Shown piece by piece: positions 12,945 through 30,478 of a stretch of 64,000 nucleotides of DNA. Every line of letters begins with the position of its first letter. The first letter of the stretch is position 1. The translations under genes and the position numbers were made by a program. Under the pieces are notes generated by a model that saw only the letters and a program-made list of their open reading frames with translations, was not told where the DNA came from and searched no databases. The stretch comes from Lacinutrix sp. Hel_I_90 (GTDB lineage Bacteria; Bacteroidota; Bacteroidia; Flavobacteriales; Flavobacteriaceae): the NCBI RefSeq assembly GCF_000934685.1, contig NZ_JYNQ01000001.1:2344501-2408500 (forward strand), read 5' to 3'.

Positions 12945-12962
12945 ACCGCAATAAGAAAGGTA

Positions 12963-14651
12963 TTACTGCAGGGCTTTCGGGATAGCGCCAATCAATTTTT
13001 TAGTATAGTCTTTTTTTGGTGCGCTGTAAATCACATCCGCATCATCAATTTCTTCAATTTTCCCCTTATTCATTACCAACAGTTGATCACTCATGTATTT
13101 CACAACAGACAGATCATGAGAAATAAAAATGTAGGTAAATCCGAATTTTTCTTTCAATTCATTTAGTAAATTTAATACTTGAGCCTGCACTGAAATATCA
13201 AGCGCAGAAACAGATTCATCACAAATAATCAGTTTGGGTTGTAAGGCGACTGTGCGTGCAATACCTATTCGTTGTCTTTGACCTCCAGAAAATTCGTGAG
13301 GATAACGATTAAAGTAACCTTCATTTAAGCCCACACGATTTAAAATAGAAATCGCTTTTTCTTTTCGTTCTTTATCGGTTTTATAGAGGTTGTGTACTTC
13401 CATGGGCTCCATGATGGCGTTACCAACAGTTAACCTAGGGTTTAAAGAAGAGTAGGGGTCTTGAAATATAATTTGAATGTCTTTTCTTAAGGACCTTATT
13501 TCAGATGAAGATAAGGAGGTAATATCGTTTCCTTTGTAGCGTATCGATCCAGCAGTAGGCTTGTCTAGAAGTAAAATGGCATTTCCTAAAGTCGATTTTC
13601 CGCATCCCGACTCACCAACCAAACCAAGAGTTTCACCTTCATATAATTTAAAACTTACATCATTTACAGCTTTAAAAGTAGTCGGTTTTGTAAACCATCC
13701 AGATTTTGACACATATTCCTTTTCCAGATTAATCACTTCTAATAAAGGCGGTTTGCTGTATATCTTTTCATGATTTAGTGCGCGCATTTCAGCTGTTATA
13801 ATCGTTTTCGAAACAGTATCATGCATCACATCATCGATGGTTGGTAAGGTTTTTTGCCGCTGAGTTAATGAGGGCTTTGACTTAATAAGTGCCTGAGTGT
13901 ATTTATGCTGAGGTGATTTAAAAATAGCTTCTACAGTATTTTGTTCTACAATATGTCCTTTATACATAACTAGCACACGGTTTGCAATTTGAGAAATTAA
14001 AGACAAGTCGTGTGTGATAAAAATAATGCTCATTTGAGTTTCGGCCTGTAAGGTTTTAAGCAAGTCGATAATTTCTTTTTGAACAGTAACGTCTAAAGCG
14101 GTCGTAGGCTCGTCTGCAATTAAAATTTTCGGTTTGCAGGCAATAGCTATCGCAATCATAACGCGCTGCTTTTGTCCACCAGAAATTTCATGAGGATAGG
14201 AAGTATAAACGCGCTCTGGTTCTGGGAGTTTCACCTTTGTTAAAAGCGAAAGGGTTTCTTCTTTTATTTGTTTTTTTGAAAGGCTGGTGTGTTGTTTTAA
14301 AACTTCTTCCACCTGCTTTCCACAGCGCATTGATGGATTTAAAGAACTCATGGGTTCTTGAAAAATCATGGCTATTTTTTTGCCTCTGATGCTCTGAAAG
14401 GCTTTAGGGCTAATTTTGGTAAGATCGTCAGCTTCAAAAACAATCTCACCACTAGTAATTTTTGAGATTTTCTTCGGAAGCAAGCCTAAAATAGCTAATG
14501 AAGCGACAGATTTGCCTGAACCAGACTCACCAACTATACCTAATATTTCATTGGTATTTAAATGGTAAGATATGGAATGGATGATTTCATTTTCTTTTCC
14601 GTTAGACAAAAAAGAAATGGATAAGTGATTTATAGAGAGCACTGATTTCAT
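12963..14651 (-). CDS. Peptide/nickel-type ABC transporter, fused double ATPase (OppD-OppF-like)
   Basis: This is an ATPase subunit of a dipeptide/oligopeptide importer with both nucleotide-binding domains on one 562-residue chain. Domain 1 (about 1-260) has Walker A GESGSGKS, signature SGGQKQR and Walker B ILIADEP. Domain 2 (about 305-560) has GESGCGKS, SGGQRQR and LIICDES, where Ser replaces the usual Pro after the catalytic-site Glu. Both domains match the OppD/OppF subfamily. No permease or binding-protein gene is adjacent, so its partners must lie elsewhere. It is followed on the plus strand by the secreted peptidase array, whose peptide products it might import; that link is speculative. 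Confidence 0.92.
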   Translation of the reverse strand: MKSVLSINHLSISFLSNGKENEIIHSISYHLNTNEILGIVGESGSGKSVASLAILGLLPKKISKITSGEIVFEADDLTKISPKAFQSIRGKKIAMIFQEPMSSLNPSMRCGKQVEEVLKQHTSLSKKQIKEETLSLLTKVKLPEPERVYTSYPHEISGGQKQRVMIAIAIACKPKILIADEPTTALDVTVQKEIIDLLKTLQAETQMSIIFITHDLSLISQIANRVLVMYKGHIVEQNTVEAIFKSPQHKYTQALIKSKPSLTQRQKTLPTIDDVMHDTVSKTIITAEMRALNHEKIYSKPPLLEVINLEKEYVSKSGWFTKPTTFKAVNDVSFKLYEGETLGLVGESGCGKSTLGNAILLLDKPTAGSIRYKGNDITSLSSSEIRSLRKDIQIIFQDPYSSLNPRLTVGNAIMEPMEVHNLYKTDKERKEKAISILNRVGLNEGYFNRYPHEFSGGQRQRIGIARTVALQPKLIICDESVSALDISVQAQVLNLLNELKEKFGFTYIFISHDLSVVKYMSDQLLVMNKGKIEEIDDADVIYSAPKKDYTKKLIGAIPKALQ

Positions 14652-14687
14652 AAATTATGTAAATGTAGGAATTACTTGCTATTTTAA

Positions 14688-14746
14688 TATGTTTTTAGCC
14701 GAAATTAAAACCGAACGTTAAAATTTTAACAGTATTTCATCGAAAA
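14688..14746 (+). promoter_or_regulatory. Degenerate protease-operator plus CATCGAAAA element (M43 gene)
   Basis: TATGTTTTTAGCCGAA at 14688-14703 matches 10 of 16 positions of the palindrome seen before the three other peptidase genes. CATCGAAAA at 14738-14746 starts exactly 50 bp after it, the same spacing as in the others. The CATCGAAAA part is clear; the palindrome is weak here. Confidence 0.4.
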
Positions 14747-14835
14747 CTTTATGAAGTTGATAATGGTTTAGGTTTTATTTTAATACTTTCGCTGCCGATA
14801 TAGTAAAAAATTAATTAATCTATTAAACAATCCTC

Positions 14836-16917
14836 ATGAAAAAAACAATTACTTTAACATTATTGAGTTTTATTTTCACGGTGTTCGCCTTTGCTCAACA
14901 GCAAAGAGAATGTGGTGTGATGGAAAATTTGGAGTACAGGAAACAACAAGATCCCCAATTGGAATCTAGAATGGCCCAAATTGAAGCTTTTACAGAACAA
15001 AAAGTAAAAGAATTAGAGTCACAAGACGCTCAAAGTAAAATAGTGGGTAGTATTATAACGATTCCAGTTGTAGTGCATGTGATTTATAGCAATTCTAATG
15101 AAAACATTAGTGAAGCTCAAATTTTATCTCAAATAAAAGTTTTAAATGACGATTTTAGAAGACTAAATTCTGATGCAGATAATACTTGGTCTCAAGCTGC
15201 AGATTCTCAAATTGAATTCTGTATGGCTTCTGTAGATCCTAATGGGAATGCTACTAATGGGATTACAAGAAAGGCATCTTCTAAAACATCTTGGGGAACC
15301 AATGATGCCATGAAAAAATCATCGCAAGGTGGAGTAAATCCATGGGATACCTCACAATATCTGAATATGTGGGTTTGTAATATTGGCGGAGGAATTCTTG
15401 GCTATGCACAATTTCCTGGAGGTAGTGCTTCTACTGATGGTGTAGTGATGGGATCACAATATTTTGGATCTAAAAATGAAGGTTCAGGGTTTTATTTAGC
15501 AGCACCTTTTGACGAAGGCAGAACAGCAACTCACGAAGTAGGTCACTTTTTTAACCTGCGTCATATTTGGGGAGATGCAAATTGTGGTAACGATTTTGTT
15601 AGCGATACACCAACACATCAAACCTCTAATGGAGGTTGTCCTACTGGAAAAGTGTCTTGTGGATCTGTAGATATGGTTCAAAACTATATGGATTACACAA
15701 ACGATTCTTGTATGAACTTATTTACAACAGGACAAAAAAATAGAATGCGTGCGGTTTTAGCTGCAGGAGGATCAAGAAGAGCTTTAGCGTTATCAGAAAA
15801 ATGTGAAGGTACAACAACAACACCAACATGTAATGACGGTATTCAAAATGGAAATGAAACAGGCGTAGATTGTGGCGGTTCTTGTGCACCTTGCCAAACA
15901 GGAAATCAATACTGTGCCTCTCAAGGAAATAGTGTTAATGATGAGTATATTTCAAGAGTACAAGTAGGAAGTATTAATAAATCGTCTGGAGGACAATTAT
16001 ATTCAAACTTTACGAGTACTTCAACCGATTTAAGCATAGGGTCTTCTTACACGATTACCGTAACACCAACTTGGACTGGAACAAAATATAATGAAGGCTA
16101 TGCAGCTTGGATTGATTATAATGGTGATGGAGATTTTACTGATGCAGGAGAGCTAGTTTTCTCTAAATCAGCTTCACAAACAACACCAGTAAGTGGAAGC
16201 TTTACTGTACCATCTGGTACTGTAGTAGGAAACAAAAGATTGCGAGTTTCTATGAAATACAATGGTATTCCATCATCATGCGAAACTTTTAGTTATGGTG
16301 AAGTTGAAGACTATACTGTAAATGTTGTAAGCGGTGGAGGTTCTCCTGATACAACAGTAAGATTAAGTCTAACATTTGATAACTATCCAGAAGAAACCTC
16401 ATGGACAATTCTTGATGGAGGCTCTACAGTTGCATCAGGAGGTACTTATGGTTCACAAGCAGACGGTTCTACCTTGAATATAGATGTAGATTTACCAGCA
16501 GGTTGTTATTCATTAGTTGTTAAGGATGCATATGGAGATGGTATGTGTTGTTCATATGGAAATGGTTCTTACAGATTGTCTGATGGAGGCACAACACTTG
16601 CTAGTGGAGGCTCTTTCTCAAGTTCTCAAACAACTAATTTCTGTGTTGGTGGAGCTTCAAGATCTTATACTAGAGTAACTACGTCTACTTTAGATGATAC
16701 ATTCGTACTATATCCAAATCCAGTGAAACAATCGCTAAACTTATCTTTAAGAGGATTGGAAGCACAAAGCTATCAAGTAATAAATATGCTTGGACAGGTT
16801 GTGTTAAAAGGTGATTTCACAGAATCTATAGATGTTTCTGAATTAAACGGTGGCATGTATATGATTCAATTAAATATTGGAGAGAAAACGAAATTAAAAC
16901 GATTTATAAAAGAATAG
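14836..16917 (+). CDS. T9SS-secreted M43 (pappalysin-like) zinc metallopeptidase
   Basis: This secreted protease has 693 residues. The signal peptide is 1-21 (ends FAFAQQ). The metzincin domain covers about 60-325, with the zinc site HEVGHFFNLRH (His233, Glu234, His237, His243) and the Met-turn QNYMDY (Met285). The Asn where many metzincins have Gly is common in bacterial M43 enzymes. A Cys-rich motif (NGNETGVDCGGSCAPC) is near 335-355. A GEVED domain spans about 357-497, then a DAYGDGMCCSYGNGSY-type domain about 510-615, then a type A T9SS sorting domain about 625-693 (LYPNPVKQ to KRFIKE). It is predicted to be exported by Sec and delivered to the surface by T9SS. Confidence 0.93.
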   Translation: MKKTITLTLLSFIFTVFAFAQQQRECGVMENLEYRKQQDPQLESRMAQIEAFTEQKVKELESQDAQSKIVGSIITIPVVVHVIYSNSNENISEAQILSQIKVLNDDFRRLNSDADNTWSQAADSQIEFCMASVDPNGNATNGITRKASSKTSWGTNDAMKKSSQGGVNPWDTSQYLNMWVCNIGGGILGYAQFPGGSASTDGVVMGSQYFGSKNEGSGFYLAAPFDEGRTATHEVGHFFNLRHIWGDANCGNDFVSDTPTHQTSNGGCPTGKVSCGSVDMVQNYMDYTNDSCMNLFTTGQKNRMRAVLAAGGSRRALALSEKCEGTTTTPTCNDGIQNGNETGVDCGGSCAPCQTGNQYCASQGNSVNDEYISRVQVGSINKSSGGQLYSNFTSTSTDLSIGSSYTITVTPTWTGTKYNEGYAAWIDYNGDGDFTDAGELVFSKSASQTTPVSGSFTVPSGTVVGNKRLRVSMKYNGIPSSCETFSYGEVEDYTVNVVSGGGSPDTTVRLSLTFDNYPEETSWTILDGGSTVASGGTYGSQADGSTLNIDVDLPAGCYSLVVKDAYGDGMCCSYGNGSYRLSDGGTTLASGGSFSSSQTTNFCVGGASRSYTRVTTSTLDDTFVLYPNPVKQSLNLSLRGLEAQSYQVINMLGQVVLKGDFTESIDVSELNGGMYMIQLNIGEKTKLKRFIKE

Positions 16918-16940
16918 TTTTAATTCAGTTATTATTTAAA

Positions 16941-16972
16941 AAGTCCAGATTTAAAATCTGGACTTTTTTTTT
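16941..16972 (+). terminator. Rho-independent terminator of the M43 gene
   Basis: The perfect stem AAGTCCAGAT / ATCTGGACTT with loop TTAAA is followed by an eight-T run, 23 bp after the stop codon. Confidence 0.9.
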
Positions 16973-17008
16973 AGGCCTTATACCTTAATTAAATTAGTTG
17001 CAACTATC

Positions 17009-17024
17009 TCTGGTTAAAACCGTA
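17009..17024 (+). promoter_or_regulatory. Operator-like palindrome next to the degraded tail
   Basis: TCTGGTTAAAACCGTA differs at two positions from the TACGGTTAAAACCGTA upstream of the M4 gene at 17251. It sits only 7 bp before a T9SS-tail remnant, as if a deletion joined an upstream region to the end of a gene. Confidence 0.45.
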
Positions 17025-17031
17025 AATCTCG

Positions 17032-17171
17032 CAGAATATGTTAGATCAACATGTAGCAAGAGGAACATCGACTAACGGTGTTAATGGTAGTAATCTTGAA
17101 ACAGGACTATACGTGACCAATTTAATGTGAATGATAAAATAGAAACGAGAAACTTTATAAAGCAAACATAG
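17032..17171 (+). pseudogene. Remnant of a T9SS C-terminal sorting domain
   Basis: Translation from 17032 gives QNMLDQHVARGTSTNGV, then NGSNLETGLYV. After a one-base deletion near 17116 the frame continues QFNVNDKIETRNFIKQT and stops at 17169-17171. This parallels the end of the M4 peptidase at 20742-20882 ([40 protein letters not shown]). The rest of the gene is absent, and a terminator follows at 17200. It is therefore the tail of a lost member of the peptidase array, most similar to the M4 gene. No function is expected. Confidence 0.8.
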
Positions 17172-17199
17172 CTATTCTTTAAAAGCTAAATTATATCAT

Positions 17200-17229
17200 A
17201 AAAGCCTCAACGAAAGTTGAGGCTTTTTT
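17200..17229 (+). terminator. Rho-independent terminator after the degraded tail
   Basis: The stem AAAGCCTCAAC / GTTGAGGCTTT with loop GAAA and T-run closely resembles the terminator after the M4 gene at 20913-20943. This supports a duplicated gene end. Confidence 0.85.
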
Positions 17230-17250
17230 CAGTTATATAATCCGATGAAC

Positions 17251-17309
17251 TACGGTTAAAACCGTACATCAAGTAGAATATTTTTCTACTTGATGTTATA
17301 CATCGAAAA
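17251..17309 (+). promoter_or_regulatory. Protease operator: TACGGTTAAAACCGTA plus CATCGAAAA (M4 gene)
   Basis: A perfect palindrome with 6-bp arms lies at 17251-17266. CATCGAAAA begins at 17301, exactly 50 bp after the palindrome start and 114 bp before the M4 ATG. The same pair at the same spacing is found upstream of the M36 and M12B genes. Confidence 0.65.
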
Positions 17310-17414
17310 CCCTTTCGTAAAACTACGTATTTAACAAACTTTTAATACATTTCTTGCAGATTTAATAATACAAATCAAAAAAAGTAATTAACTCTTAATT
17401 AATCCATTAGTATT

Positions 17415-20400
17415 ATGAAAAAAAACTCCTTCAAAGCATTGTTCTTATCCATTTTTGCGGCAGGTGTCTGTGCGTCAGGTTTTGCACAAGATAAAGTCCA
17501 GCAAAAAGTTAATGGTGATAATGGGCAGCCCTCTTTAGTTATCTTTAATAAAGAGGCTTCTTATTCTATGCAAGAGGTTAACACTGTTTTGGCAGAACAG
17601 TTAAAGACAAGAGAAAGCGATGGCTTTTTTCAAATTAAATCTGAATCTGACAATATTGGTTTTTTACATCAAAAATACCAACAATCATATAACGGAATTC
17701 CTGTAGAATTTGGAACCTATACTTTACATGGTAGAAATGGAAAAGTCGTTTCAATTAGTGGAGAATATTACGATTTGGAAGGTGTGAATACAACGCCGGC
17801 AATAAATAAATTACAAGGCTTTCAGTCTGCAGTAAATCACATAGGTGCTCAAAGTTACTTATGGGACAATGTTGTTATGGCAAATCAAATGAATTATTCT
17901 AAACCAGTGGGTGAATTAGTTTTACTCCCTAATTTAGATGCTCAGGGAAAAGAGACTTCTAAAAATGCACAACTAGCTTATAAATATGATATCTATGCCA
18001 CTCAGCCAATCAGTAGAGGGGTTATATATGTAGATGCAGTTACAGGCAAAGTTTTGTTTTATAATAGTATCATCAAGCACTTAGATGAGCATGCAAACTC
18101 TTCTAAAAATTTAATCTCTGTTGCTACAGAGCATAGTGTTGAAGCACCAGTTGCTTACAGAGCCACTGGGAATGCAGCGACACGTTATAGTGGTACAAAA
18201 CAAATTACAACACGTATTGTAGGTTCTACCTACGCCCTAAGGGATGATACTCGTGGCAACGGTGTGAATACCTACAATAGTGGAAGACAGCCTTCTTATC
18301 CATCAACTAACTTCACAGATGCCAATAATGATTGGACAGCTGCAGAATTTAATAATACAAATAAAGACAACGCTGCATTAGACGCGCATTGGGGAGCTGA
18401 AAAAACATACGATTACTTGTCATCAGTACATTCAAGAAATTCATATAACGGTTCTGGAGCGGCGATTAATAGTTGGGTGCATTATGATGATGTCGCAGGC
18501 GGCTTAGGTTATGACAATGCCTTTTGGAATGGAAGTGTTATGACCTATGGTGATGGTTCCTCTACTGGAGCAGAAGGCAATGGTTATTTTGATGCTTTAA
18601 CTTCGATAGATGTTGCTGCTCATGAAATAGGTCACGCGGTTACAAGTAGTTCGGCAAACCTAGCTTATCAAAGAGAGTCAGGTGGACTTAATGAAGGGTT
18701 TTCAGATATTTGGGGAGCGGCTGTTGAGCATTTCGCTAAAGGTAATGGAAATGATGCAGCACCAGCATCAATTATCTGGTTAATTGGTGATGAAATTGAT
18801 AGAAGAACAGGGTCTTCAGCACTGCGGTCTATGAGTAATCCAACGTCTCGCAATCAACCAGATACATACGGTGGAACGTACTGGAAAAATCCTAATTGTG
18901 GTACACCAACGCAATCTAATGACTATTGTGGTGTACATACAAACTCAGGTGTTTTAAACTACTGGTTTTACTTAAGTGTGGCCGGAGGAAGTGGTACTAA
19001 CGATATTGGAAATGCATTTAATGTTTCTGGAATCGGCATGACTAAATCTGCTAAAATCGCGTACAGAACATTAACACAGTATTTATCTGCTAACTCAACA
19101 TTTGCAAATGCGAGAACAGGAGCCATACAGTCAGCAAGAGATTTATATGGTGCAGGAGGAGCAGAAGAAATTGCGGTAACAAACGCATGGCATGCCGTGG
19201 GTGTTGGAGCAGCATTCGGTGGTGGCGGAGGCACATCTTATTGTGCTTCTACAAGTTCTAATGTTAATGATGAGTACATTTCTAGAGTACAATTAAATAC
19301 AATTAATAACGCTTCAGGGGCACAAAGCTATTCAAATTTCACAGCTGTTGCGACGACTTTAGCAAAAGGATCTACTCACACAGTAACTATTACTCCAACT
19401 TGGACAGGGACAAAGTACAATGAAGCTTTTGCTGTTTGGATTGATTATAACGGTGATAAAGATTTTGATGATTCAGGAGAACAATTAGGTACTGTGGCTC
19501 CAAACCAAAATGCGACCTCTAGTATTACGTTTACTGTGCCAACAACGGCAAGTGCAACGTCAACTAGAATGCGAGTGTCTATGCAATATAATGCTGTGCC
19601 AACGGCATGTCAGTCATTCACATACGGAGAAGTAGAAGATTACACTATTAACATTGGGGGTACAGCTTCAGATACTCAAGCACCAAGTGCTCCTGGCAGC
19701 TTATCAGCTTCAGGAACTACACAAACAACAACCAATTTATCGTGGACGGCGTCTACAGATAACGTGGGTGTAACAGGTTACGAAGTCTTCCAAGGGAGTA
19801 CAAGTTTAGGAACAGTCACTGCAACATCAGCGAATGTAACAGGTTTAACCGCTAGTACAACCTATTCATTTACAGTTAAAGCTAAAGATGCTGCAGGAAA
19901 TACATCAGCGTCAAGTAATGCGGTTAGTGTAACCACATTGTCAGATACACCATCTGGAGGTTGTACAGGAGGTATTGCGTCTTTCCCTTATGGAGAAAGT
20001 TTCGAAAGCGGATTAGGTGCTTGGACTCAAGCTACTGGAGACGATTTAAACTGGACTAGAGATAGTGGCGGTACGCCATCAGGTAATACAGGACCAACAT
20101 CAGGTTCAGCAGGCTCTTGGTATTTATTCGTTGAAGCATCTTCGCCAAACTACCCAAGTAAGAGTGCGATTTTAAACTCGCCTTGTTTTAACTTAAGTAG
20201 TTTGACTACAGCGAACTTTACCTTTGATTACCATATGTATGGTGCTAATAACTTGGGAAGTATTGCTGTAGAAGCAAGTAACAATAGTGGGGTTTCATGG
20301 GCTTCAATCTGGAATCAGTCTGGAGCGTCACAAGGGAATGCTTGGCAATCTGTTAGTTTAGATTTATCGGCTTATGTTGGTGGTTCAGTACAGCTAAGAT

Positions 20401-20882
20401 TTGTGCGTATCACAGGAGATACATGGCAAGCAGATATTGCAATCGATAATGTGAAGCTTTTAAATTCGGCACCTAGTACAGATATTTGTGCTGGCGTATC
20501 AGAATATGTAAGTACACAATCTTATAGTACAGGTGATAGAGTAACATATCAAGGTAATTTATTTGAAAGAACAGCATCGGGCTGGACAAACTTAGGTGCT
20601 TGTGGAGCAACAGTGAACGCTATTGTTACAGACACAGTTAACTATCCACCAAAGGCGTTAGAGATTTCATTATATCCTAATCCGGTAAAAGGAAATACAC
20701 TGTATGTTAGAACGTCTGCAGAAAACTTACCGTTTATTGTGGTTAATATGTTAGGTCAGCAAGTTGCTAAAGGAAGAACTTCTGCAAATGGTGTTGATGT
20801 TTCAGAGCTTGAATCTGGTTTATATTTAATACAATTTAACGTAAATGATACATTAGAAACAAGAAAGTTTATAAAGCAATAG
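17415..20882 (+). CDS. T9SS-secreted M4 (thermolysin-like) zinc metallopeptidase
   Basis: This secreted protease has 1155 residues. The signal peptide is 1-25 (ends ASGFAQ). The propeptide has an FTP-like region (about 40-110) and a PepSY-like region (about 120-220). The M4 catalytic domain covers about 255-600, with HEIGH (His403, Glu404, His407), zinc-ligand Glu427 in GGLNEGFSD, and catalytic His508 in [14 protein letters not shown]. Accessory domains follow: GEVED (about 615-750), fibronectin III (about 757-840), a MAM-like jelly-roll (about 850-1015) and a short chitin-binding-like module (about 1020-1060, [19 protein letters not shown]). The type A sorting domain is about 1085-1155, ending ETRKFIKQ. 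All catalytic residues are present. Confidence 0.94.
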
Positions 20883-20912
20883 ACACTTATTTTTGAAAAC
20901 TAATTTTAGTAA

Positions 20913-20943
20913 AAAAGTCTCAACGGAAGTTGAGACTTTTTTT
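20913..20943 (+). terminator. Rho-independent terminator of the M4 gene
   Basis: The stem AAAAGTCTCAAC / GTTGAGACTTTT with loop GGAA runs directly into a T-run, 30 bp after the stop codon. Confidence 0.9.
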
Positions 20944-20960
20944 ATTCTAAAAAGTTGAAA

Positions 20961-21020
20961 ATTACGGGTTTAACCGTAATTATTTTAAAAGTAAACCTGT
21001 TTTTTTGTTGTTCATCGAAA
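20961..21020 (+). promoter_or_regulatory. Protease operator: ATTACGG-N6-CCGTAAT plus CATCGAAA (M36 gene)
   Basis: The palindrome ATTACGGGTTTAACCGTAAT occupies 20961-20980. CATCGAAA starts at 21013, exactly 50 bp after the TACGG of the left arm and 111 bp before the M36 ATG. Confidence 0.65.
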
Positions 21021-21123
21021 AGGATGGGATATTATTTAGCATTTAATAAAGATTTAATAAATTCAATGAAGATTTAACAATAATATCTTAAAAAACGTAT
21101 TAATCCATTAATTTATTATCATT

Positions 21124-24100
21124 ATGAAAAACAGTTACAAATTGTTTTTACTGCTAATTTTTGCAGTACAAACCTCATTCTGCCAAAAGCAATTGGATGG
21201 TGTCGTTCAGAACTATTTTAATAGTATTTCTGAAGTATCAGATTCAAAAAAAGCAGATTTATCTGAATGGAAAATTTCAGATGTCGTTCCCTCCTTGAAT
21301 CCGGAAATTCAGCATGTTTATGTACAGCAGTACCACAACAACATTCCCATTCAATTTGCTAGTTATAAGTTAACAGTTAAAAATAACCAAGTGACTTATA
21401 AGCTTAATCAATTTGTTACAGATATAGCATCCAAAACAGCGACGTCAATTCCCTCAATTACACCAGAAACCGCGATATTAAAAACAATTAGGAAGCATGG
21501 TTTACAGAGCCCAACACTTAGAGGCACTAAAAACAAGGAAGGTGTTAACGAGTACAGAAACTCAGGAATAAGTGAAGAGCCTATTAAAGCTAAGTTAATG
21601 TATCAAGTTTATGACGGTAAGCTGAAGTTGGTCTGGAATGTGAATCTATATCAAGCCGACGGGAAACATTGGTGGAGCGAAAACGTAGACGCAAGCACAG
21701 GGCAAGTACTGTATACTGAAGACTGGGTTGTCTCTTGTAATTTTGAGGATCCTAATCATAAAAACCACAATCACAATAGTGAGGCTACGCCCACATTAGA
21801 AAAAGCTGCCCCCTTCTTTTATGAAGCGACTACAACAGCGGAGGCTTTAGTTGGCGGAGGTTCTTATAATGTATTCCCGATAGGGATAGAAAGTCCAAAT
21901 CACGGAAACAGAACGATAGTAACAGATCCTGCTAATGCCTTGGCCTCGCCTTTTGGATGGCATGATACGAACGGTAGTTCTGGAGCAGAATTTACAATAA
22001 CTAGAGGAAACAATGTATGGGCACAAGAAGACACCAATGGAAATAATGGAACTGGTGTTTCTCCTAATGGAGGTAGCGCATTAAATTTTGATTTCGCATT
22101 AAATTTGAATAATAGTCCTTCAACATTTTTACCGGCTGCAACAACAAATCTATTCTATTGGAATAATATTATGCATGATGTATTTTATCAATATGGTTTT
22201 ACTGAAGCTTCTGGAAATTTTCAAGAAAACAATTATGGTAAAGGCGGGGCTGGTAGTGATTCTGTAAACGCAGACGCTCAAGATGGAAGTGGTACGAATA
22301 ATGCAAACTTCGCGACGCCACCAGATGGTAGTAACCCTAGAATGCAAATGTTTCTATTTACAAATCCTACTAGAGATGGTGATTTGGACAATGTAATTAT
22401 TGCTCATGAGTATGGGCATGGTATTTCAACACGTTTAGTAGGTGGGCCAAACTCTAATGTATTAGGAGGTTCTGAGCAAATGGGAGAAGGCTGGTCAGAC
22501 TGGTTAGGTCTAGTACTTACAATACGTCAAGGCGATGATAGAAATACTGCTCGTGGGGTTGGAACCTATGCTATAGGTCAAGCTACAAATGGTGCAGGAA
22601 TTCGCCCTACGCGATATTCTACAGATTTTGCAGTTAATAGCACAGATTATGGCGATATTTCTGGTCTATCAGTACCTCATGGTGTAGGCTATGGTTTTGC
22701 AACTATTCTTTGGGATATGACCTGGGATCTTATAGATTTGGTAGGGTATGATTCAAATTTATATACAGGTAATGGAGGAAATAATATAGCAATGGCACTC
22801 GTTATTGAAGGCCTTAAGAATACAGCAAATAATCCGGGCTTTGTTTCTGGGCGTGATGGTATTCTTCAAGCTGATCAAGATCTTTATGGCGGACAATACA
22901 ATTGTTTAATTTGGGATGCTTTTGCCAAAAGAGGGGTTGGAATAGATGCTGTAGAAAATTCAAATGGTGGTACAAATACTAATAATGATCAAATAATTTC
23001 ATTTACAAGTGGATGTGGTGACCCAATACCCGTAGATTGTGATTCTACTATTGCAAGTTTTCCTTACAATGAAGGTTTTGAAAATACTTTAGGCTCATGG
23101 TCTCAAGGCACTGGAGACGATTTTGATTGGACACTTAGAACCGGAGGAACACCTTCTAGCAATACAGGTCCAGCAGGAGCTTTTGAAGGAACACATTATA
23201 TATACGTCGAAGCTTCTAGCCCAAATTTTGGAGGAAAAAACACCATTCTAAATTCACCTTGTTTCGACTTTACAGGAGTCGCTAGTCCAACTGCGAATTT
23301 TCATTATCAAATGACAGGAGATTCAGTAGGAACGATTAGACTGGAAGCCAGATTAGATGGCGAACAAACCTGGACAGAAGTATGGATTAAAACGGGAGAT
23401 CAAGGTGCTGCCTGGGTGAGTGAGAATGTAGGTCTTTCGGCTTATGCTGGAGAAACAGTGCAATTAAGATTTAGAGGAACAACAAATACCTCTTGGCAAG
23501 GCGATATTGCAATTGATGCGTTTAGCGTTACTACAACCAATCAAGATACGCAAGCACCAACTGCTCCTACAAGCTTAGCCGCTTCAGGAACAACGCAAAC
23601 AACAACTAATTTATCTTGGACCGCGTCTACAGATAACGTGGGTGTTACAGGTTACGAAGTTTTTCAGGGAGCTACAAGTTTAGGAACAGTAACTGCAACG
23701 TCATCGATTGTAACAGGTTTAACAGCGAATACAACCTATTCGTTTACTGTTAAAGCGCAAGATGCGGCAGGAAATGAATCGGCGGCAAGTAATGCTGTTA
23801 GTGTAACCACATTATCAGACACACCACCGGGAGGATGTGCAGGAGGTATTAGTGCTTTTCCATATAGTGAAAGTTTCGAGAGCGGATTAGGCGCTTGGAC
23901 GCAAGCTAGTGGAGACGATTTAAACTGGACACGTGATAGTGGTGGAACACCTTCTTCTAGTACAGGACCTGCATCGGGGTCATCGGGATCTTGGTATGTA
24001 TATGTAGAAGCATCTTCTCCTAATTACCCAAGTAAAAGGGCTATTTTGAATTCGCCTTGTTTTAATCTGAGTTCGGTTTCTCAAGCTAATTTCACTTTTG

Positions 24101-24954
24101 ATTACCATATGAACGGCGCCAATGATTTAGGTAGTATTTCAGTAGAAGCGAGTGATAATGACGGAGCAACCTGGACAACTATTTGGTCTGAATCTGGTGC
24201 TTCACAAGGAAATGTATGGCAATCTGTTAATTTAGACCTTGCCAATTATGTTGGAGACAGTGTGCAACTACGATTTAATCGTTTAACCGGTAATACTTGG
24301 CAAGCAGATATCGCTATTGATAATGTTGGCGTATCCACTGATGGAGGACCACCAACAAGCTGTTCTAATGTAACGCTTTCTTTTACGTTTGATAATTATC
24401 CAGAAGAAACGGCATGGTCTATTGTAAATGGATCGGGGACGACTGTTGCCTCTGGAGGGACCTACGGATCTCAACCAGATGGCTCAACTTTAAATATTGC
24501 TGTTGGATGTTTAGATGATGGCTGTTATAATTTAATTGTCACTGATACTTATGGAGATGGTATTTGTTGTGCTTACGGGAGTGGTTCATACACATTAACT
24601 AATTCTGATACAGGAGGGACGTTAGCTTCTGGGGGAGCTTTTACAAGCTCTGAGACCACTAACTTCTGTTTAGCAAGTTCAGGCTTTGCTGCTGGGTTAA
24701 CGTCAGAACCTGTTAGAGCAGATAATTTAGACCAACACTTTAAATTATATCCAAACCCTGTTGAGGAAGAACTAAAAATATCATTAATGGGCTTTAGAGC
24801 ACAAAGTTTTGAAATTAATAATATGCTAGGACAAACCGTAATTAAAGGGAGATATAGTGATACTATTGATGTTTCAAAATTAGAAGCAGGAATATATATC
24901 ATGCAGTTGAATATTGGAGAGAAAACCAAAATAAAAAGATTTATAAAAGAATAA
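21124..24954 (+). CDS. T9SS-secreted M36 (fungalysin-like) zinc metallopeptidase
   Basis: This secreted protease has 1276 residues. The signal peptide is about 1-20. A propeptide fills about 25-225. The M36 catalytic domain covers about 240-635, with HEYGH (His428, Glu429, His432) and third ligand Glu455 in MGEGWSDW. Then come a MAM-like domain (about 640-805), fibronectin III (about 810-900), a second MAM-like domain (about 905-1075) and a [15 protein letters not shown]-type domain (about 1080-1185). The type A sorting domain is about 1200-1276. The last 1.1 kb is nearly identical to the end of the M12B gene. Head and tail therefore have different histories. Confidence 0.93.
23853..24954 (+). 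repeat. 1.1-kb near-identical tail, copy 1 (in M36 gene)
   Basis: It aligns without net gaps to 28106-29207 (constant offset 4253) with only scattered, mostly silent differences. It covers one MAM-like domain, the TYGDGICC domain and the sorting domain. Similarity fades but continues about 60 bp into the terminator. This indicates recent duplication or gene conversion. Confidence 0.9.
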
Positions 24955-24987
24955 TTAAAGTATTCTAATTAACTCATAATTAGGTTT

Positions 24988-25016
24988 AAAGCCCAAGCGA
25001 AAGCTTGGGCTTTTTT
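24988..25016 (+). terminator. Rho-independent terminator of the M36 gene
   Basis: The perfect stem AAAGCCCAAGC / GCTTGGGCTTT with loop GAAA is followed by a T-run. Confidence 0.9.
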
Positions 25017-25034
25017 ATGTTTTTTAAACAACTC

Positions 25035-25094
25035 ATTACGGTAAACACCGTAATTTGTATGGCATGTTTATTTATTTTGCCTGTTTTATCAAAA
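25035..25094 (+). promoter_or_regulatory. Protease operator: ATTACGGT-N4-ACCGTAAT plus TATCAAAA (M12B gene)
   Basis: The perfect palindrome ATTACGGTAAACACCGTAAT occupies 25035-25054. TATCAAAA, a two-base variant of CATCGAAA, starts at 25087, exactly 50 bp after the TACGG of the left arm and 98 bp before the ATG. Confidence 0.6.
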
Positions 25095-25184
25095 TTTCTG
25101 ATTTAATCTGTTAATATTTGTTAAAAAAGTGATAATTTAATTAAAAATATCACATAAAGTTAATTAATCTTTTAAACCACCCTC

Positions 25185-28100
25185 ATGAAAAAACTATTAC
25201 TATTAGCTTTTTTTATGTCTACAGCGTTTGCTTTTTCTCAAAGCAAATCACTGTGGCAAAAAAAAGCGCCAGCAGCAATTTCTCAAGTTAAAGCAAGTAA
25301 ACAAAACTTGCCAACAACGGCAACTTACCATTTAAACCTTGAAGGTTTAAAACAAGCGTTAACCAAAGCGCCCAAAAGAGATTCAGCAACTAAAAACTCT
25401 AATGTTATTATTGCGTTTCCTAACGAGAAAGGAGAATTTGAGAGTTTTAGAATCTTTGAAGCCTCAGTAATGCATCCTGATTTAGAAGCTAAATATCCAG
25501 GAATTAAATCTTATGCAGGACAAGGTATAAGCGATCCTTCATCAAGAATTCGTTTTAGCGTTTCACCCCTAGGTTTGCAGAGTATGCGGCTATCTGCGGG
25601 AAAACCTGCCGCTTTTATTGAGCCCTATACTAATGATGGTTTACATTATACAGTCTACAAAAGAGAAGACAAAACAACCACGTATGATGATTTTGAATGC
25701 CAAGTTACTGATGCCGCTAATAAAACATTGTTGGGTAATAATGCTGCATTTAGAAATGCAGATGATTCTATTTTAAGAACCTATAGATTAGCCGTATCTA
25801 CTACTGCAGAATATACGACGTATCATGGCGGCACAAAAACATTAGCATTAGCCGCTATTAATACAACCATGACGAGAGTCAACGGTATTTTTGAAAATGA
25901 TTTTAATGTCACCATGATATTAATTGCTAATACAGACGCCGTTATTTACACCAATGCGTCTACAGACCCCTATGGCTCTACTTCTGGTGGTTTTAATAGT
26001 GCTTTACAAAACACTTTAACTAATGTTATTGGTGAAGCAAATTATGATGTAGGGCACTTGTTTGCAAAAGCCTCTAATAATGGTAATGCCGGTTGTATAG
26101 GCTGTGTCTGTGTTAATGGACAAAAAGGTAGCGGATTTACTTCAAGACAAGATCCAGAAGGTGATCCTTTTGATGTAGATTATGTTGCACATGAACTTGG
26201 ACATCAGTTTGGTGGAAACCATACCTGGACACATGGGGGAAATGAAGGCACGAATGTACAAATGGAACCAGGAAGTGGAAGCACAATAATGGGTTATGCC
26301 GGAATTACAGGAGCCAATACAGATGTACAACAAAATAGCGATCCGTATTTTCATGCGATTACTATAGAACAGATAACAGATTATGTAAAGTCAACAAGCT
26401 GTCAAATAAATACCAATACAGGTAATGCTGTGCCTACAGCTAACGCTGGATCCAATTATACGATTCCAAAAGGAACAGCTTTTGTATTAACAGGAGCAGG
26501 TTCTGATGCGAATTCACAAGATGTATTAACTTATTGCTGGGAGCAAATAGATGAAAATAATTCAGCCACACAAAAACCTAGTGTAACCGCTACGACTGGC
26601 CCAGCTTTTAGGTCTTACCTCCCTACGACGAACACTAAAAGGTATTTTCCAAGATTAGCAACCATTAAAACAGGCGCAACAGCTTGGGAATGGGAAGCGG
26701 TTCCTAATGTGGCAAGAAGTTTAAATTTTAGGTTAACTGTTCGAGATAATAGAGCTGGCGGCGCCAATAATAATAGTGATGATATGGCAATATCAGTCAA
26801 TGGTGCGGCCGGACCATTTATTGTTAATACGCCAAATACAAATGTAACCTGGAACGCAGGAACAACGCAGTCGGTAACTTGGAATGTTGCGGGAACAACA
26901 GGAAATGGCGTAAACGCCGCTAATGTTGATATTTTTCTGTCTACAGATGGCGGGAATACCTATCCAATTTCTTTGGCTACGGGCGTACCAAATGATGGCG
27001 CGCAGGATATTGTTGTACCTAATAACCAAGGGTCTCAAAACAGAATCATGGTAAAAGGCGCTAATAATATTTTCTTTGATATTTCTAATAATAATTTTAC
27101 TATTGGAACGCCAGTATCTTGTGTAGCTACTGTGCCGGTAAGTTTAGCGGCGTCAAATGTTGGGGCTTCAACAGCAACTTTAAGCTGGACAGCGGTACCT
27201 GCTGCAACATACGATTTGCGTTATAGAAAAACAGGAACAACAACCTGGACAACGAATGCGGTGACAGGAACGTCTCTAGCTTTATCGGGACTAACGGCTT
27301 TAACGCAATATGAAGCGCAGGTAAGAAGTAAATGTTCAGGCGGAAGTAATTCAGCCTATAGTGCCTCTGTTAGTTTCACAACAACTCAAATACAGTTAAA
27401 TTACTGTGCTTCTGCAAGTACAAATGTTAACGATGAGTATATCTCTAGAGTACAATTAGGGACTATTAACAATAGCTCTGGAGCACAGTTCTATTCAGAT
27501 TTTACTGCACAATCCACAAATTTAGCAAAAGGATCAGCATCTACTATTACAATTACGCCAACTTGGACAGGTACCGTTTATAATGAAGCTTATGCCGTTT
27601 GGATTGATTATAATAAAGATGGTGATTTTACAGATGCCGGAGAACAAGTGTTTTCTCAAGCACCCACACAAGCAACACCAGTAAGTGGAACCTTTACAGT
27701 ACCAAATACGGCTACTAATGGCCCAACAAGAATGCGGGTTTCAATGAAGTATAATGCGGCACCTGCCGCTTGTGAATCGTTCCAGTATGGAGAAGTGGAA
27801 GATTACACCGTAAATATTCAAGCAGGAGCAGTAGATACCATTGCTCCAGTAATTACATTAATAGGCAGTGCTACTATTAACCTATTAGTTGGAGATTCGT
27901 ATAACGATCAAGGAGCTACTGCAACAGATAATGTTGATGGAAACATAACATCAAGTATTGTTACTACAGGAACGGTAAATACGACCGTTGCAGGCACGTA
28001 TATAATTACTTATAATGTAAGCGATGCGGCAGGAAATGCAGCGACACCCGAAATAAGAACTATTAATGTGACAGCGGTGAGCTCAGGATGTACTGCGGGT

Positions 28101-29207
28101 GTTTCCGCTTTTCCATATAGTGAAAGTTTCGAGAGCGGATTAGGCGCTTGGACGCAAGCCAGTGGAGACGATTTAAACTGGACACGTGATAGTGGAGGAA
28201 CACCTTCTTCTAACACAGGACCTGCATCGGGGTCATCGGGATCTTGGTATGTATATGTAGAAGCATCTTCTCCTAATTACCCAAGTAAAAGGGCTATTTT
28301 GAATTCCCCTTGTTTTGATCTGAGTTCGGTTTCTCAAGCTAATTTCACTTTTGATTACCATATGAACGGCGCCAATGATCTCGGTAGTATTTCTGTAGAA
28401 GCTAGTGATAATGACGGAGCAACCTGGACTACGATTTGGTCTGAATCTGGTGCTTCACAAGGAAATGCATGGCAATCTGTTAATTTAGACCTTGCCAATT
28501 ATGTTGGAGACAGTGTGCAACTGCGATTTAATCGTTTAACCGGCAATACTTGGCAAGCAGATATCGCTATTGATAATGTTGGCGTATCCTCTGATGGAGG
28601 ACCACCACCAGGCTGTTCTAATGTAACGCTTTCTTTTACGTTTGATAATTATCCAGAAGAAACGGCATGGTCTATTGTAAATGGATCGGGATCAACTGTT
28701 GCCTCTGGAGGCACTTATGGATCACAACCAGATGGTTCAACTTTAAATATTGCTGTTGGCTGTTTAGATGATGGCTGTTATAATTTAATCGTCACTGATA
28801 CTTATGGAGATGGTATTTGTTGTGCGTATGGGAATGGTTCATACACATTAACTAATTCTGATACAGGAGTCACGTTAGCTTCTGGAGGGGCTTTTACAAG
28901 CTCTGAGACCACGAACTTCTGTTTAGCAAGTTCAGGCTTTGCTTCTGGGTTAGCTTCAGTAACTACTAGAGCAGATAATTTAGACCAACAGTTTAAATTA
29001 TATCCAAACCCAGTTGAGCAAGAACTAAAAATAGCATTAATGGGCTTTAGAGCACAAAGTTTTGAAATTAATAATATGTTAGGACAAACCGTAATTAAAG
29101 GGAGATATAGTGATACGATTGATGTTTCAAAATTAGAAGCAGGAATGTATATCATACAGTTGAATATTGGAGAGAAAACCAAAATAAAAAGATTTATTAA
29201 AGAATAA
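25185..29207 (+). CDS. T9SS-secreted M12B (reprolysin-like) zinc metallopeptidase
   Basis: This secreted protease has 1340 residues. The signal peptide is 1-19 (ends FAFSQS). A propeptide fills about 25-195. The reprolysin-like domain covers about 200-405, with the complete zinc motif HELGHQFGGNH (His336, Glu337, His340, His346) and the Met-turn STIMGYAG (Met369). Then come PKD/Ig-like regions (about 410-640), fibronectin III (about 645-735), GEVED (about 740-880), a DUF5011/HYR-like domain (about 885-965; GDSYNDQGATATDNVDGNIT), a MAM-like domain (about 970-1140), a TYGDGICC domain (about 1145-1250) and a type A sorting domain. It is the last of the four peptidases and shares its tail with the M36 enzyme. 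Confidence 0.93.
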   Translation: MKKLLLLAFFMSTAFAFSQSKSLWQKKAPAAISQVKASKQNLPTTATYHLNLEGLKQALTKAPKRDSATKNSNVIIAFPNEKGEFESFRIFEASVMHPDLEAKYPGIKSYAGQGISDPSSRIRFSVSPLGLQSMRLSAGKPAAFIEPYTNDGLHYTVYKREDKTTTYDDFECQVTDAANKTLLGNNAAFRNADDSILRTYRLAVSTTAEYTTYHGGTKTLALAAINTTMTRVNGIFENDFNVTMILIANTDAVIYTNASTDPYGSTSGGFNSALQNTLTNVIGEANYDVGHLFAKASNNGNAGCIGCVCVNGQKGSGFTSRQDPEGDPFDVDYVAHELGHQFGGNHTWTHGGNEGTNVQMEPGSGSTIMGYAGITGANTDVQQNSDPYFHAITIEQITDYVKSTSCQINTNTGNAVPTANAGSNYTIPKGTAFVLTGAGSDANSQDVLTYCWEQIDENNSATQKPSVTATTGPAFRSYLPTTNTKRYFPRLATIKTGATAWEWEAVPNVARSLNFRLTVRDNRAGGANNNSDDMAISVNGAAGPFIVNTPNTNVTWNAGTTQSVTWNVAGTTGNGVNAANVDIFLSTDGGNTYPISLATGVPNDGAQDIVVPNNQGSQNRIMVKGANNIFFDISNNNFTIGTPVSCVATVPVSLAASNVGASTATLSWTAVPAATYDLRYRKTGTTTWTTNAVTGTSLALSGLTALTQYEAQVRSKCSGGSNSAYSASVSFTTTQIQLNYCASASTNVNDEYISRVQLGTINNSSGAQFYSDFTAQSTNLAKGSASTITITPTWTGTVYNEAYAVWIDYNKDGDFTDAGEQVFSQAPTQATPVSGTFTVPNTATNGPTRMRVSMKYNAAPAACESFQYGEVEDYTVNIQAGAVDTIAPVITLIGSATINLLVGDSYNDQGATATDNVDGNITSSIVTTGTVNTTVAGTYIITYNVSDAAGNAATPEIRTINVTAVSSGCTAGVSAFPYSESFESGLGAWTQASGDDLNWTRDSGGTPSSNTGPASGSSGSWYVYVEASSPNYPSKRAILNSPCFDLSSVSQANFTFDYHMNGANDLGSISVEASDNDGATWTTIWSESGASQGNAWQSVNLDLANYVGDSVQLRFNRLTGNTWQADIAIDNVGVSSDGGPPPGCSNVTLSFTFDNYPEETAWSIVNGSGSTVASGGTYGSQPDGSTLNIAVGCLDDGCYNLIVTDTYGDGICCAYGNGSYTLTNSDTGVTLASGGAFTSSETTNFCLASSGFASGLASVTTRADNLDQQFKLYPNPVEQELKIALMGFRAQSFEINNMLGQTVIKGRYSDTIDVSKLEAGMYIIQLNIGEKTKIKRFIKE
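28106..29207 (+). repeat. 1.1-kb near-identical tail, copy 2 (in M12B gene)
   Basis: This is the partner of 23853-24954. The homology begins abruptly at the codons for AFPYSESFE, directly after an unrelated Ig-like domain, which marks one recombination boundary. Confidence 0.9.
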
Positions 29208-29240
29208 TTATAGTATTCTAACCAACTACTAATTATGTGA

Positions 29241-29268
29241 AAAGTCCAAGCGAAAGTTTGGGCTTTTT
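29241..29268 (+). terminator. Rho-independent terminator of the M12B gene
   Basis: The stem GTCCAAGC / GTTTGGGC (one G-T pair) with loop GAAA and T-run is clearly related to the terminator after the M36 gene. Confidence 0.8.
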
Positions 29269-29764
29269 ATTTGTATTTTTTTTGGGCAAATTTTTGCCAG
29301 AAAAAGGCAAAAACCAGGCGGTCACTACTCAATCTTTTTGTGCCAAAAAGGATTTCAAACATACCGTTCCATCCTTTTTGCGCTAGGTTAGTTTTTAAAG
29401 TAAACTCAAAGATAATATCTATAGTTTTGACATAGAAAAAGAAGTGGTCTATACTTTAGAAGTAATAGTATTGACGCGTCAAATTATTCGAAACTTTAAT
29501 GGCGTCTAAAATTTCAAAAAAGGGATCAGTCAGTTCAGGTAAGACCTGAATACTTTGGTCACTTATAATCTTTTCAGTTAATAGTGTGGATAATTCGGCA
29601 TCATTATAATAGTTGATTTCTTGGTTACAACATAAAGAGGAAATCGAAATAATTAATGATAGTAAAATGCTTCTTGTAAGTTGATTTGGCTAGTTGTATT
29701 GAGAGAAATAGACGCTTCATCGCAATTTTTTCCAGAAAAGAAGTATTGTAACCCCTATTATTAC
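29269..29764. other. Intergenic region after the peptidase array
   Basis: Apart from the degraded minus-strand frame at 29456-29680, I see only weak structure: two similar Lys/Phe-like stretches with CTTTTTG-type repeats (GCCAGAAAAAGGCAAAAACC near 29296; GTGCCAAAAAGGAT near 29340 and CCATCCTTTTTGCGC near 29369). The last two are partly complementary and could form a long hairpin. No promoter or gene is clear. Confidence 0.4.
29456..29680 (-). pseudogene. Degraded small lipoprotein gene
   Basis: An open minus-strand frame of 74 codons reads LTRSILLSLIISISSLCCNQ then a soluble part (DAELSTLLTEKIISDQS, LPELTDPFFEILDAIK) to a TAA at 29456-29458. The start looks like the hydrophobic core and lipobox of a lipoprotein signal, but a TAG lies 12 bases upstream in frame and no ATG or GTG fits. 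A usable ATG (at 29718-29720) lies in another frame, so a frameshift in the signal region is likely. Family unknown. Confidence 0.45.
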
Positions 29765-30478
29765 TTATACATGAATAATCTCATCTGCGGATAAAATAGT
29801 ATCACCGCGCAATCTCAAGAAAATTTGAGCCACCGCAATCGTATCTTTTTCACAGTAGGTAATAATGCGGTCGATGTCTTTTTCTTCATAATAGGTTTTA
29901 TACACCTCACTACCATCAATATCATCTTTAGGCGAAGGAATCCCTAGAACATTAGTCATGAGTTTTAAAGAGGTATAGGTTTTGTAATCACCAAATTTCC
30001 AGAGTTCTAATGTGTCTAAATGTGGCACTTCCCAAGGTTTTTTACCGAAGAGATTGAGTTTATATGGCAATTCGATATTATGAATAATCATGCGTCTGGC
30101 AATATATGGGAAATCGAATTCTTTACCATTATGCGCACAAAGCAAGTGTTTCGCTTGGCTAAAATGCGAAATCAATAAGTTTTTAAAGTCTCTTAACAAA
30201 TCAGGTTCTTCGCCATAAAAAGAGGTCGTACGAAACAAACGGGTGTCACCTTGCAGGGTAAAATATCCAACCGAAATACAAATGATCTTCCCAAACTCTG
30301 CCCAAATGCCTGCGCGGTCGTAGAATTCTTCAGCATTAAACTCTTCTTTTCTCTGGTACCGCGATTTGGCTTCCCAAAGCTCTTGCTTCGTTTTATCTAA
30401 TTCAGAAAAATGTTGTGTTTCCGGAACGGTTTCAATGTCTAAAAAGAGAATGTGTTCAAGATTAAGTTTTGATATCAT
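29765..30478 (-). CDS. 3'-5' exonuclease, PolB-type DEDD family
   Basis: This is a stand-alone proofreading-type exonuclease of 237 residues. The DEDD acidic residues are visible: Asp14 and Glu16 in FLDIETVP, the Asp in LCAHNGKEFDFPYIARR and the Asp in ITYCEKDTIAVAQIFLRL. It matches the predicted PolB-like 3'-5' exonuclease family common in Bacteroidota. It acts presumably on DNA 3' ends in repair, but the substrate is not shown by sequence. It has a 48-bp gap from the serine hydrolase upstream on the same strand. Confidence 0.87.
   Translation of the reverse strand: MISKLNLEHILFLDIETVPETQHFSELDKTKQELWEAKSRYQRKEEFNAEEFYDRAGIWAEFGKIICISVGYFTLQGDTRLFRTTSFYGEEPDLLRDFKNLLISHFSQAKHLLCAHNGKEFDFPYIARRMIIHNIELPYKLNLFGKKPWEVPHLDTLELWKFGDYKTYTSLKLMTNVLGIPSPKDDIDGSEVYKTYYEEKDIDRIITYCEKDTIAVAQIFLRLRGDTILSADEIIHV

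Follow-up and report, generated by a model that had tools for sequence, protein, structure and literature searches.

This analysis concerns a stretch of 64,000 nucleotides from Lacinutrix sp. Hel_I_90 (contig NZ_JYNQ01000001.1, positions 2,344,501 to 2,408,500 of the forward strand; hereafter the window), and within it a tandem array of four genes for predicted secreted metallopeptidases of different families. The array consists of four adjoining plus-strand open reading frames (ORFs), which the ORF listing places at 14836-16917, 17415-20882, 21124-24954 and 25185-29207. The Pfam families found over cut-off are, in that order, Peptidase_M43; Peptidase_M4 with M4_C; Peptidase_M36; and Reprolysin_4, Reprolysin_3 and Reprolysin_5. 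Each of the four proteins has exactly one HExxH motif. The M43 head scores 57.8 bits against a cut-off of 23 and has the site HEVGHFFNLRH; the M4 head has two Pfam M4 domains over cut-off (122.5 and 179.7 bits) and the site HEIGH; and the M36 head, also over cut-off, scores 446.6 bits with the site HEYGH. The M12B-like head reaches 144 bits with Reprolysin_4 against a cut-off of 22, and its site, HELGHQFGGNH, fits HExxHxxGxxH. The M36 protein also matches NF038113, the family of M36 metallopeptidases dependent on the type IX secretion system (T9SS), at 770 bits (E 4e-231), which is below the curated cut-off of 885 bits, perhaps owing to a different C-terminal half.

Each head is joined to accessory modules and to a C-terminal sorting tail. 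The M43 protein is composed of the head, GEVED, the TYGDGICC module (TYG) and the tail; the thermolysin-type M4 protein of FTP, M4, GEVED, fn3, MAM, a CBM_5_12-like piece below the Pfam cut-off (a carbohydrate-binding-module-like, or CBM-like, piece) and the tail; the fungalysin-type M36 protein of FTP, M36, MAM, fn3, a second MAM, TYG and the tail; and the M12B-like protein of the head, an Ig/PKD-like region, fn3, GEVED, a surface Ig, MAM, TYG and the tail. GEVED is therefore found in three of the four (not in M36), as are fn3 and MAM (neither in M43) and TYG (not in M4). Por_Secre_tail is over the Pfam cut-off in all four proteins, and all four exceed both curated cut-offs of the T9SS type A sorting domain (TIGR04183/PF18962). 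An earlier note on this DNA had described M43, M4, M36 and M12B heads in tandem with accessory modules and a type A tail, and the Pfam and profile searches bear this out. The same note gave each gene its own terminator: a hairpin with a T-run, read by eye and then placed, starts 23-34 nt past each of the four stops, but a consensus terminator scan picked up just two of them, after M36 and M12B, and the 13 hits it gave in all are unremarkable against 9.7 (standard deviation 3.4) in shuffles. The N-termini of all four proteins resemble signal peptides, judged by eye. To judge from the families, the HExxH motifs and the tails, these proteins probably leave the cell through the T9SS and take part in extracellular proteolysis.

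The tails of the array were said in the earlier note to be the same. The six array pairs have 40-93% identity, whereas the other 459 pairs in this genome have a median of 26% and a 95th percentile of 34%; this comparison used 31 tail rows from 42 matches, with one gene present twice, so that one of the 459 pairs is a self-comparison, and at most four or five of the 459 are as alike as the M4 pairs. The M36 and M12B tails are 93% identical, the M43 tail is 60-63% identical to these two, and the M4 tail is 39-42% identical to all three others. The array tails are thus related, two of them being near-copies and one intermediate, with the M4 tail of another class; what stands of the claim is that they rise above the genome background. 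The tail nearest to that of M43 belongs to a Bizionia M43 (74% identity), and that nearest to the M4 tail belongs to a Lacinutrix mariniflava M4 (77-78%), or by tree path to a Lacinutrix neustonica M43. The M36 and M12B tails, at 93% to each other, are only 84-86% identical to the M36 tail of L. neustonica. The observation that the earlier note named as refuting its reading, namely that tails are nearest to orthologues in other species instead of to their neighbours, was therefore made, by identity, for the M43 and M4 tails but not for those of M36 and M12B.

The likeness between M36 and M12B extends well beyond the tail. A 1.2 kb tract comprising MAM, TYG, tail, stop codon and terminator is present at 23832-25025 on M36 and at 28085-29283 on M12B (both plus strand), with 93.7% DNA identity over 1199 columns. 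The synonymous divergence (dS) between the copies is 0.14 over 370 codons (MAM 0.12, TYG 0.22, tail 0.10), while the M36 gene of the window differs from that of L. neustonica with a dS of 0.67, 0.62 and 0.42 for the same modules, and the heads differ between the two species with a dS of 0.66-1.07. The MAM, TYG and tail of M12B are 96%, 97% and 93% identical to those of the M36 neighbour, compared with 84-89% to L. neustonica M36, and the nearest relative of the M12B gene changes at the boundary of its Ig and MAM modules. A three-way alignment has 143 sites that group the copies of the window together, compared with 32 and 32 for the alternative pairings; the MAM tree also joins the window copies with a support of 100/95. 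The M12B copy is nearer to the M36 of the same genome than to any other sequence found in 299 genomes of the family and the loci read. These comparisons indicate that the last 1.2 kb of the M12B gene is a recent copy of the end of its M36 neighbour. A collapsed copy in the assembly is an unlikely source of the tract, because the copies differ at about 6% of sites and the genome is in 2 contigs with 100% completeness. No fossil of an older M12B tail was found past 29207, and no intergenic stretch of the array gave a match at E <= 1 except 16918-17414.

That stretch lies behind M43, whose own end has been replaced. From the left flank of the array to 16326, the end of the M43 GEVED, the window is collinear with L. 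neustonica; 708 bp in the window and 276 bp in L. neustonica then differ, and collinearity begins again at 17035, within the L. neustonica M43 tail, continuing through the same terminator and the upstream region of M4. The non-collinear C-terminal cassette of M43 (16327-16972, plus strand) contains TYG, tail, stop and terminator (16940-16972), and its TYG and tail are 85-87% and 70-74% identical to those of Bizionia M43. Beside it, outside any gene, lies a frameshifted sorting tail (16975-17171, plus strand), identified by tblastn, DNA collinearity and a tree. Its best tblastn match is the L. neustonica M43 tail (E 3.6e-12 in a fixed search space), with which the tree groups it at 99/86, and it is followed by a leftover terminator (17200-17229, plus strand) that aligns with the L. 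neustonica M43 terminator. The M43 genes of nine other genomes of the genus (G002, G004, G005 and G007-G012; L and G numbers denote loci and genomes of our survey) end in a CBM-like piece and a tail of the fossil's class, while that of G001 ends in TYG-TYG-tail and the slots of G003 and G006 showed no M43. Because collinearity is broken, a dead tail is present and M43 of nine congeners has the older tail class, the present M43 end is a replacement. A TYG-tail cassette, presumably from another lineage, displaced the older tail and left it behind as a fossil.

By comparison, the heads and most of the proximal modules are conserved, the nearest relative found being the orthologue in L. neustonica or another Lacinutrix. 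The heads are 88-92% identical to those of L. neustonica (for M4 and M36 over parts, as their genes are split there by frameshifts), and the three GEVED modules, the fn3 of M4 and M12B, the surface Ig, the M4 MAM and the first M36 MAM are 86-94% identical to the orthologue; the CBM-like piece of M4 reaches 98%. The earlier note called the locus a head-swapping platform. This is right in part: across genera, mixed heads go with related tails, but the replacements traced in the window are of C-terminal cassettes on conserved heads and not of heads on a fixed tail.

Three switch points, in M4, M36 and M12B, were mapped by informative sites against L. neustonica (L104). Near 20793, inside the M4 tail, the ratio of M4-like to M12B-like sites is 83:26 on the left and 34:88 on the right; near 24970, just past the M36 stop, the ratio of M36-like to M4-like sites changes from 65:6 to 19:68; and near 28081, at the Ig/MAM boundary of M12B, the ratio of M12B-like to M36-like sites changes from 97:15 to 66:392. 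The switches thus fall inside a tail, immediately beyond a stop codon or where two modules meet. The gene order also differs, being M43-M4-M36-M12B in the window and M43-M4-M12B-M36 in L. neustonica. If [M12B-M36] was duplicated in tandem by crossing-over of the M4 and M36 3' ends, and if two deletions followed, one from the M4 tail to the M12B tail and the other from the M12B MAM to the M36 MAM, the result would be the order of the window, the M36-like end of M12B and all three junctions. In the L. neustonica array (L104 6021-20164), frameshifts split the M4, M12B and M36 genes, and sequencing error and decay are indistinguishable there.

The array lies between two genes that are conserved as neighbours. 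On its left is a double ATP-binding cassette (ABC) transporter ATPase of the peptide/oligopeptide type (12963-14651, minus strand; NCBIfam GsiA/OppF/DppF-type), separated from M43 by a divergent upstream region of 184 bp common to both genes (14652-14835), a distance that is similar in most filled slots. On its right is a PolB-exonuclease/RNase H-like gene (29765-30478, minus strand; Pfam DNA_pol_B_exo2 and RNase_H_2), for which 258 of 299 family genomes contain a match at E <= 1e-60. We surveyed the best 79 of these matches, down to G159, reading up to 20 kb beside each and including the window and three earlier loci. In 36 cases the slot is empty, with the flank genes 11-108 bp apart (median 18); 31 are closed and contain T9SS modular genes, one contains other cargo, and in 11 the ABC gene was not reached. 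Among these 11, six have a modular gene beside the right flank, L193 has M4-M43-M36 and one unclassified ORF before the flank, and in four none of the five ORFs listed is modular. As read directly from the loci, the flanks are on one strand in all 68 closed slots, and all 46 modular genes of the 32 closed non-empty slots are on the plus strand. The heads of these 46 are M43 (13), M12B (13), M4 (5), M36 (1) and others (14), with one modular gene in 19 slots, two in 10, three in one, four in one and none in one; no two of the 13 M12B genes have the same string of modules. All slots read together hold 95 modular genes (some from duplicate records), 32 with other heads, and the scanned members of the other-head clusters of 13, 6 and 5 match M14 carboxypeptidase, S8 subtilase and sortilin/VPS10.

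Among the 13 genomes of the genus, the slot is empty in G003, contains a single M43, in some with a small ORF, in G001, G004, G007, G009, G011 and G012, and contains M43-M4 in G005 and M12B-M43-M36 in G010. In L. neustonica (G008), M43-M4-M12B-M36 is followed by 13 kb more before the right flank, with no module in the ORFs listed there. The survey counts leave out G002, in which M43 is beside the ABC gene and the right flank is 57 kb away, and G006, whose contig stops at the slot. A quick tree of the flanks with 83 rows requires at least 13 changes between the filled and the empty state, 10 of them forced by starred branches. The slot of L221 (828-11435) contains oxidoreductases, a glycoside hydrolase of 109-type and a 3-keto-disaccharide hydrolase, a block of sugar-oxidation type on the strand opposite to the usual cargo. 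As regards an integron or transposon cassette array, no recombinase was seen among eight non-T9SS slot ORFs scanned by Pfam, and at seed 14 no inverted repeats of at least 40 bp, the length class covered, were found in 12000-32000. A tRNA-Ser(gga) gene (39052-39139) lies 9 kb to the right of the slot. Our searches of the open-access literature turned up no paper on this slot.

Exchange between neighbours is also seen at other slots. Of the 61 tails in the 25 slots with at least two tails, 11 have a slot neighbour as their closest match, against a permutation mean of 1.4 and a maximum of 9 in 2000. The pairs are M36/M12B (window), M4/M36 (L193), M43/M4 (L195), VPS10/M14 (L248) and S8/M12B (L265), together with the M14 of L139; the margins are small for L265 (1-10 points) and L139 (2 points). 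At the DNA level, tracts of at least 80% identity over 150 bp between neighbours with different heads are found in 6 of 26 slots, a set that includes L065 and L094 and leaves out L. neustonica (L104). Besides the window, these are L193 (882 and 420 bp), L195 (225 bp, tail only), L248 (1744 and 290 bp), L063 (431 bp, GEVED) and L072. In L072 a gene with a VPS10-like head (6041-12055) and an M12B gene (12298-16989) have 1789 bp in common at 99.4%, and their tails are 22% alike, which points to a very recent exchange that spared the tails. L196 was discounted as an exchange, since the two ORFs there overlap, as if a single gene had been broken. Mapping the heads onto a tree of 92 tails takes 41 changes of the head label, compared with a minimum of 7 and a mean of 55.8 after shuffling; without unassigned heads the figure is 34. 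This tree has 78 columns, with 49 of 89 inner branches unresolved; it includes L. neustonica (L104) and omits L065 (a near-duplicate of L064), L094 (identical to L222) and the partial slots L187, L188, L189 and L191. Tails are thus partly loyal to heads, with the loyalty often broken, and the tree is blind to which part moved. Two records titled Bifidobacterium breve and Candidatus Nitrotoga (L112 and L114) contain Flavobacteriaceae-like M12B T9SS genes and are probably contaminated or misnamed metagenome bins.

The earlier note also gave each gene its own operator. A candidate, the palindrome TACGG-N6-CCGTA, was found by pattern search before M4 (TACGGTTAAAACCGTA, 17251-17266), M36 (TACGGGTTTAACCGTA, 20963-20978) and M12B (TACGGTAAACACCGTA, 25037-25052), these three being all the copies in the window, where 0.03 are expected; M43 has no exact copy upstream, so the claim holds for three of the four genes. 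The shorter form ACGG-N5-6-CCGT is upstream of 23 of 47 first slot genes (0.01 in letter shuffles), about 110-190 nt before the ATG; the 47 stretches are 46 distinct ones, as L094 equals L222, and 23 distinct ones have the palindrome. By head, it precedes 12 of 20 M43, 8 of 14 M12B, 3 of 11 other and 0 of 2 M4 first genes. It is also in 13 of 35 internal intergenic stretches (0.015 in shuffles) and is absent from 361 kb of slot coding sequence. The palindrome is likely an operator, and its presence before many slot genes suggests a common regulator. A genome-wide protease regulon was considered and rejected, the genome total not being enriched (14 sites in 3.8 Mb, compared with 12 for a reversed control pattern). 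Two of the eleven site loci outside the array, picked for Pfam scanning because their ORFs looked like secreted peptidases, are both M57. In these M57 genes of the same genome, the palindrome is about 162 nt (L270:487-1380) and about 108 nt (L280:1622-2455) before the first Met of the frame.

The TYG module, about 107 aa long, occurs in the array at 16348-16656, 24361-24681 and 28614-28934. The member shown matches no Pfam family over cut-off, none of 32 members has a best E-value below 5e-4, and no sequence in the PDB matches at E <= 0.1. The predicted model is a beta-sandwich with a predicted local distance difference test score of 92.6. Its best structural neighbours are the calcium-dependent CBM60 and CBM36 (Z 7.7, root-mean-square deviation 2.6 over 87 residues), with many other beta-sandwiches at 6-7; Foldseek gave no match at E <= 0.001. 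The score to CBM60/CBM36 may reflect no more than a common arrangement.

Taken together, we think it quite probable that a fixed slot is filled with T9SS proteases whose C-terminal ends are exchanged by recombination between neighbours, one such event having left a fossil. The array is the filled state of the slot between the exonuclease-like and peptide-type ABC ATPase genes, the empty state presumably being ancestral. In the slots read, it is occupied by one to four T9SS modular secreted proteins, mostly peptidases, in one direction, with heads probably arriving by horizontal transfer. Recombination between homologous C-terminal modules, presumably homologous recombination, would replace the end of a neighbour, reorder genes and leave scars; the exchanged tracts, the switch points and the fossil tail are directly observed. 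The fixed slot, the empty sites and the tail fossil are the stronger part of the finding and go beyond what the earlier note covered.

Several observations weigh against this account. The M4 tail shows no sign of recent copying from its array neighbours, and the amino-acid tail tree pairs the window M36 with L. neustonica M36 and not with the window M12B, weakly (95/43); the tail trees have 78 columns. The fn3 of M36 is 88% identical to the M4 fn3 of both species but 79% identical to its own orthologue, and its dS to the window M4 fn3 is 0.41, compared with 0.76 for M4 fn3 between species (86 codons), which perhaps reflects an older exchange. For the polarity of the rearrangement there is a single close genome to go by, that of L. 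neustonica, in which frameshifts break the array and the gene order could itself be derived. Of the first slot genes, 24 of 47 are without the exact palindrome, and the closed slots also hold 12 other ORFs of at least 100 aa, six of them in the other-cargo slot. Head identity tracks flank identity weakly (Spearman 0.17 and 0.22, with 18 and 13 of 200 permutations as high), a non-significant correlation compatible with turnover that decides nothing, on vertical inheritance of heads either. Finally, in slots with more than one gene, 50 of the 61 tails have their closest counterpart outside their own slot. From this, alongside the 11 neighbour-nearest tails above permutation, tail exchange is real and recurrent but episodic, and there is no standing state of shared tails.

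It has to be considered whether the likeness of tails and modules comes from constraint by the secretion machinery alone, since all four tails fit one T9SS type A profile and module classes recur across genera. This would still hold for the M4 tail. However, for M36 and M12B it is contradicted by agreement at synonymous sites and by identity that continues through the stop codon and terminator; the other tail pairs of the genome are far less alike, a dead tail lies beside M43, and we regard constraint as a very improbable explanation. That whole genes come by horizontal transfer with ready-made C-terminal ends, without exchange within the array, would fit the weak tracking of flanks by heads and the Bizionia-like M43 cassette. 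It is nevertheless improbable, as M12B is collinear with its L. neustonica orthologue to about 28081 and M36-like beyond, ending in a sequence nearer to the M36 of its own genome than to anything found in the family genomes and loci read.

Two further alternatives are somewhat doubtful but deserve more weight. Gene conversion from M36 to M12B, with independent translocation of one gene, could stand in for the duplication and deletions; the same tract and the same dS would be expected, and the L072 tract with its unlike tails is what conversion would leave, but extra events are needed for the junctions in the M4 tail and past the M36 stop, both of which the duplication chain predicts. The other alternative is that the filled state is ancestral and the empty slots are losses from an old, decaying protease locus, with no landing site. 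States are clustered on the flank tree (13 changes, compared with 27 in shuffles), although such counts are blind to gain or loss. The short gaps of the empty slots and the common strand of their flanks, which resemble an intact operon, and the wide variation of head sets among filled slots speak against it, so we think this unlikely and prefer the reading of a filled slot with an empty ancestral state.

Two known systems come close to this one. The KLIKK proteases of Tannerella forsythia are clustered, different proteases with near-identical T9SS-type tails (PMC4404884). The stretch between head and tail is described there as unique to each protease, save for a 30-residue motif and for a pair of serine proteases in which it is common to both, and the parts of that account consulted mention no recombination junctions, empty site or family-wide slot (PMC4404884). 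In the window, by contrast, modules are shared too and exchange is traced at the DNA level, whereas only the M36 and M12B tails are near-identical, and the endings are RFIKE, KFIKQ, RFIKE and RFIKE, with no KLIKK ending. The gingipains RgpA and Kgp and HagA of Porphyromonas gingivalis, according to the parts of the source consulted, are surface proteins with a conserved C-terminal domain and adhesin modules that are repeated within and between genes and rearranged, for which domain rearrangement, allelic exchange and gene conversion have been invoked (PMC5266723). Their heads are gingipain catalytic domains, with none in HagA (PMC5266723), whereas the slot described here has M43, M4, M36, M12B, M14 and S8 heads at one chromosomal address. 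New relative to both systems are the larger number of head families, the sharing of modules as well as tails, the slot across many genera of a single family and the DNA-level traces.

Multidomain T9SS enzymes are thought to evolve through module shuffling, the steps of which, to our knowledge, have seldom been caught. Here, one locus shows a recipient, a likely donor, the switch points and a discarded tail. The flanking gene pair provides an address at which the exchange of heads, modules and tails can be measured in hundreds of genomes, and at which one can ask if export or surface attachment depends on the class of tail, while the palindrome marks a candidate set of co-regulated extracellular proteases. 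A bolder proposal, which we offer tentatively and hold at somewhat less than even confidence, is that the slot is a strand-locked assembly site for T9SS proteases across the Flavobacteriaceae, where new heads would arrive beside shared promoters bearing the palindrome, and unequal crossing-over between common C-terminal modules would recombine heads, adhesion modules and export tails. If so, the extracellular enzyme repertoires of these bacteria would be rebuilt at one address.

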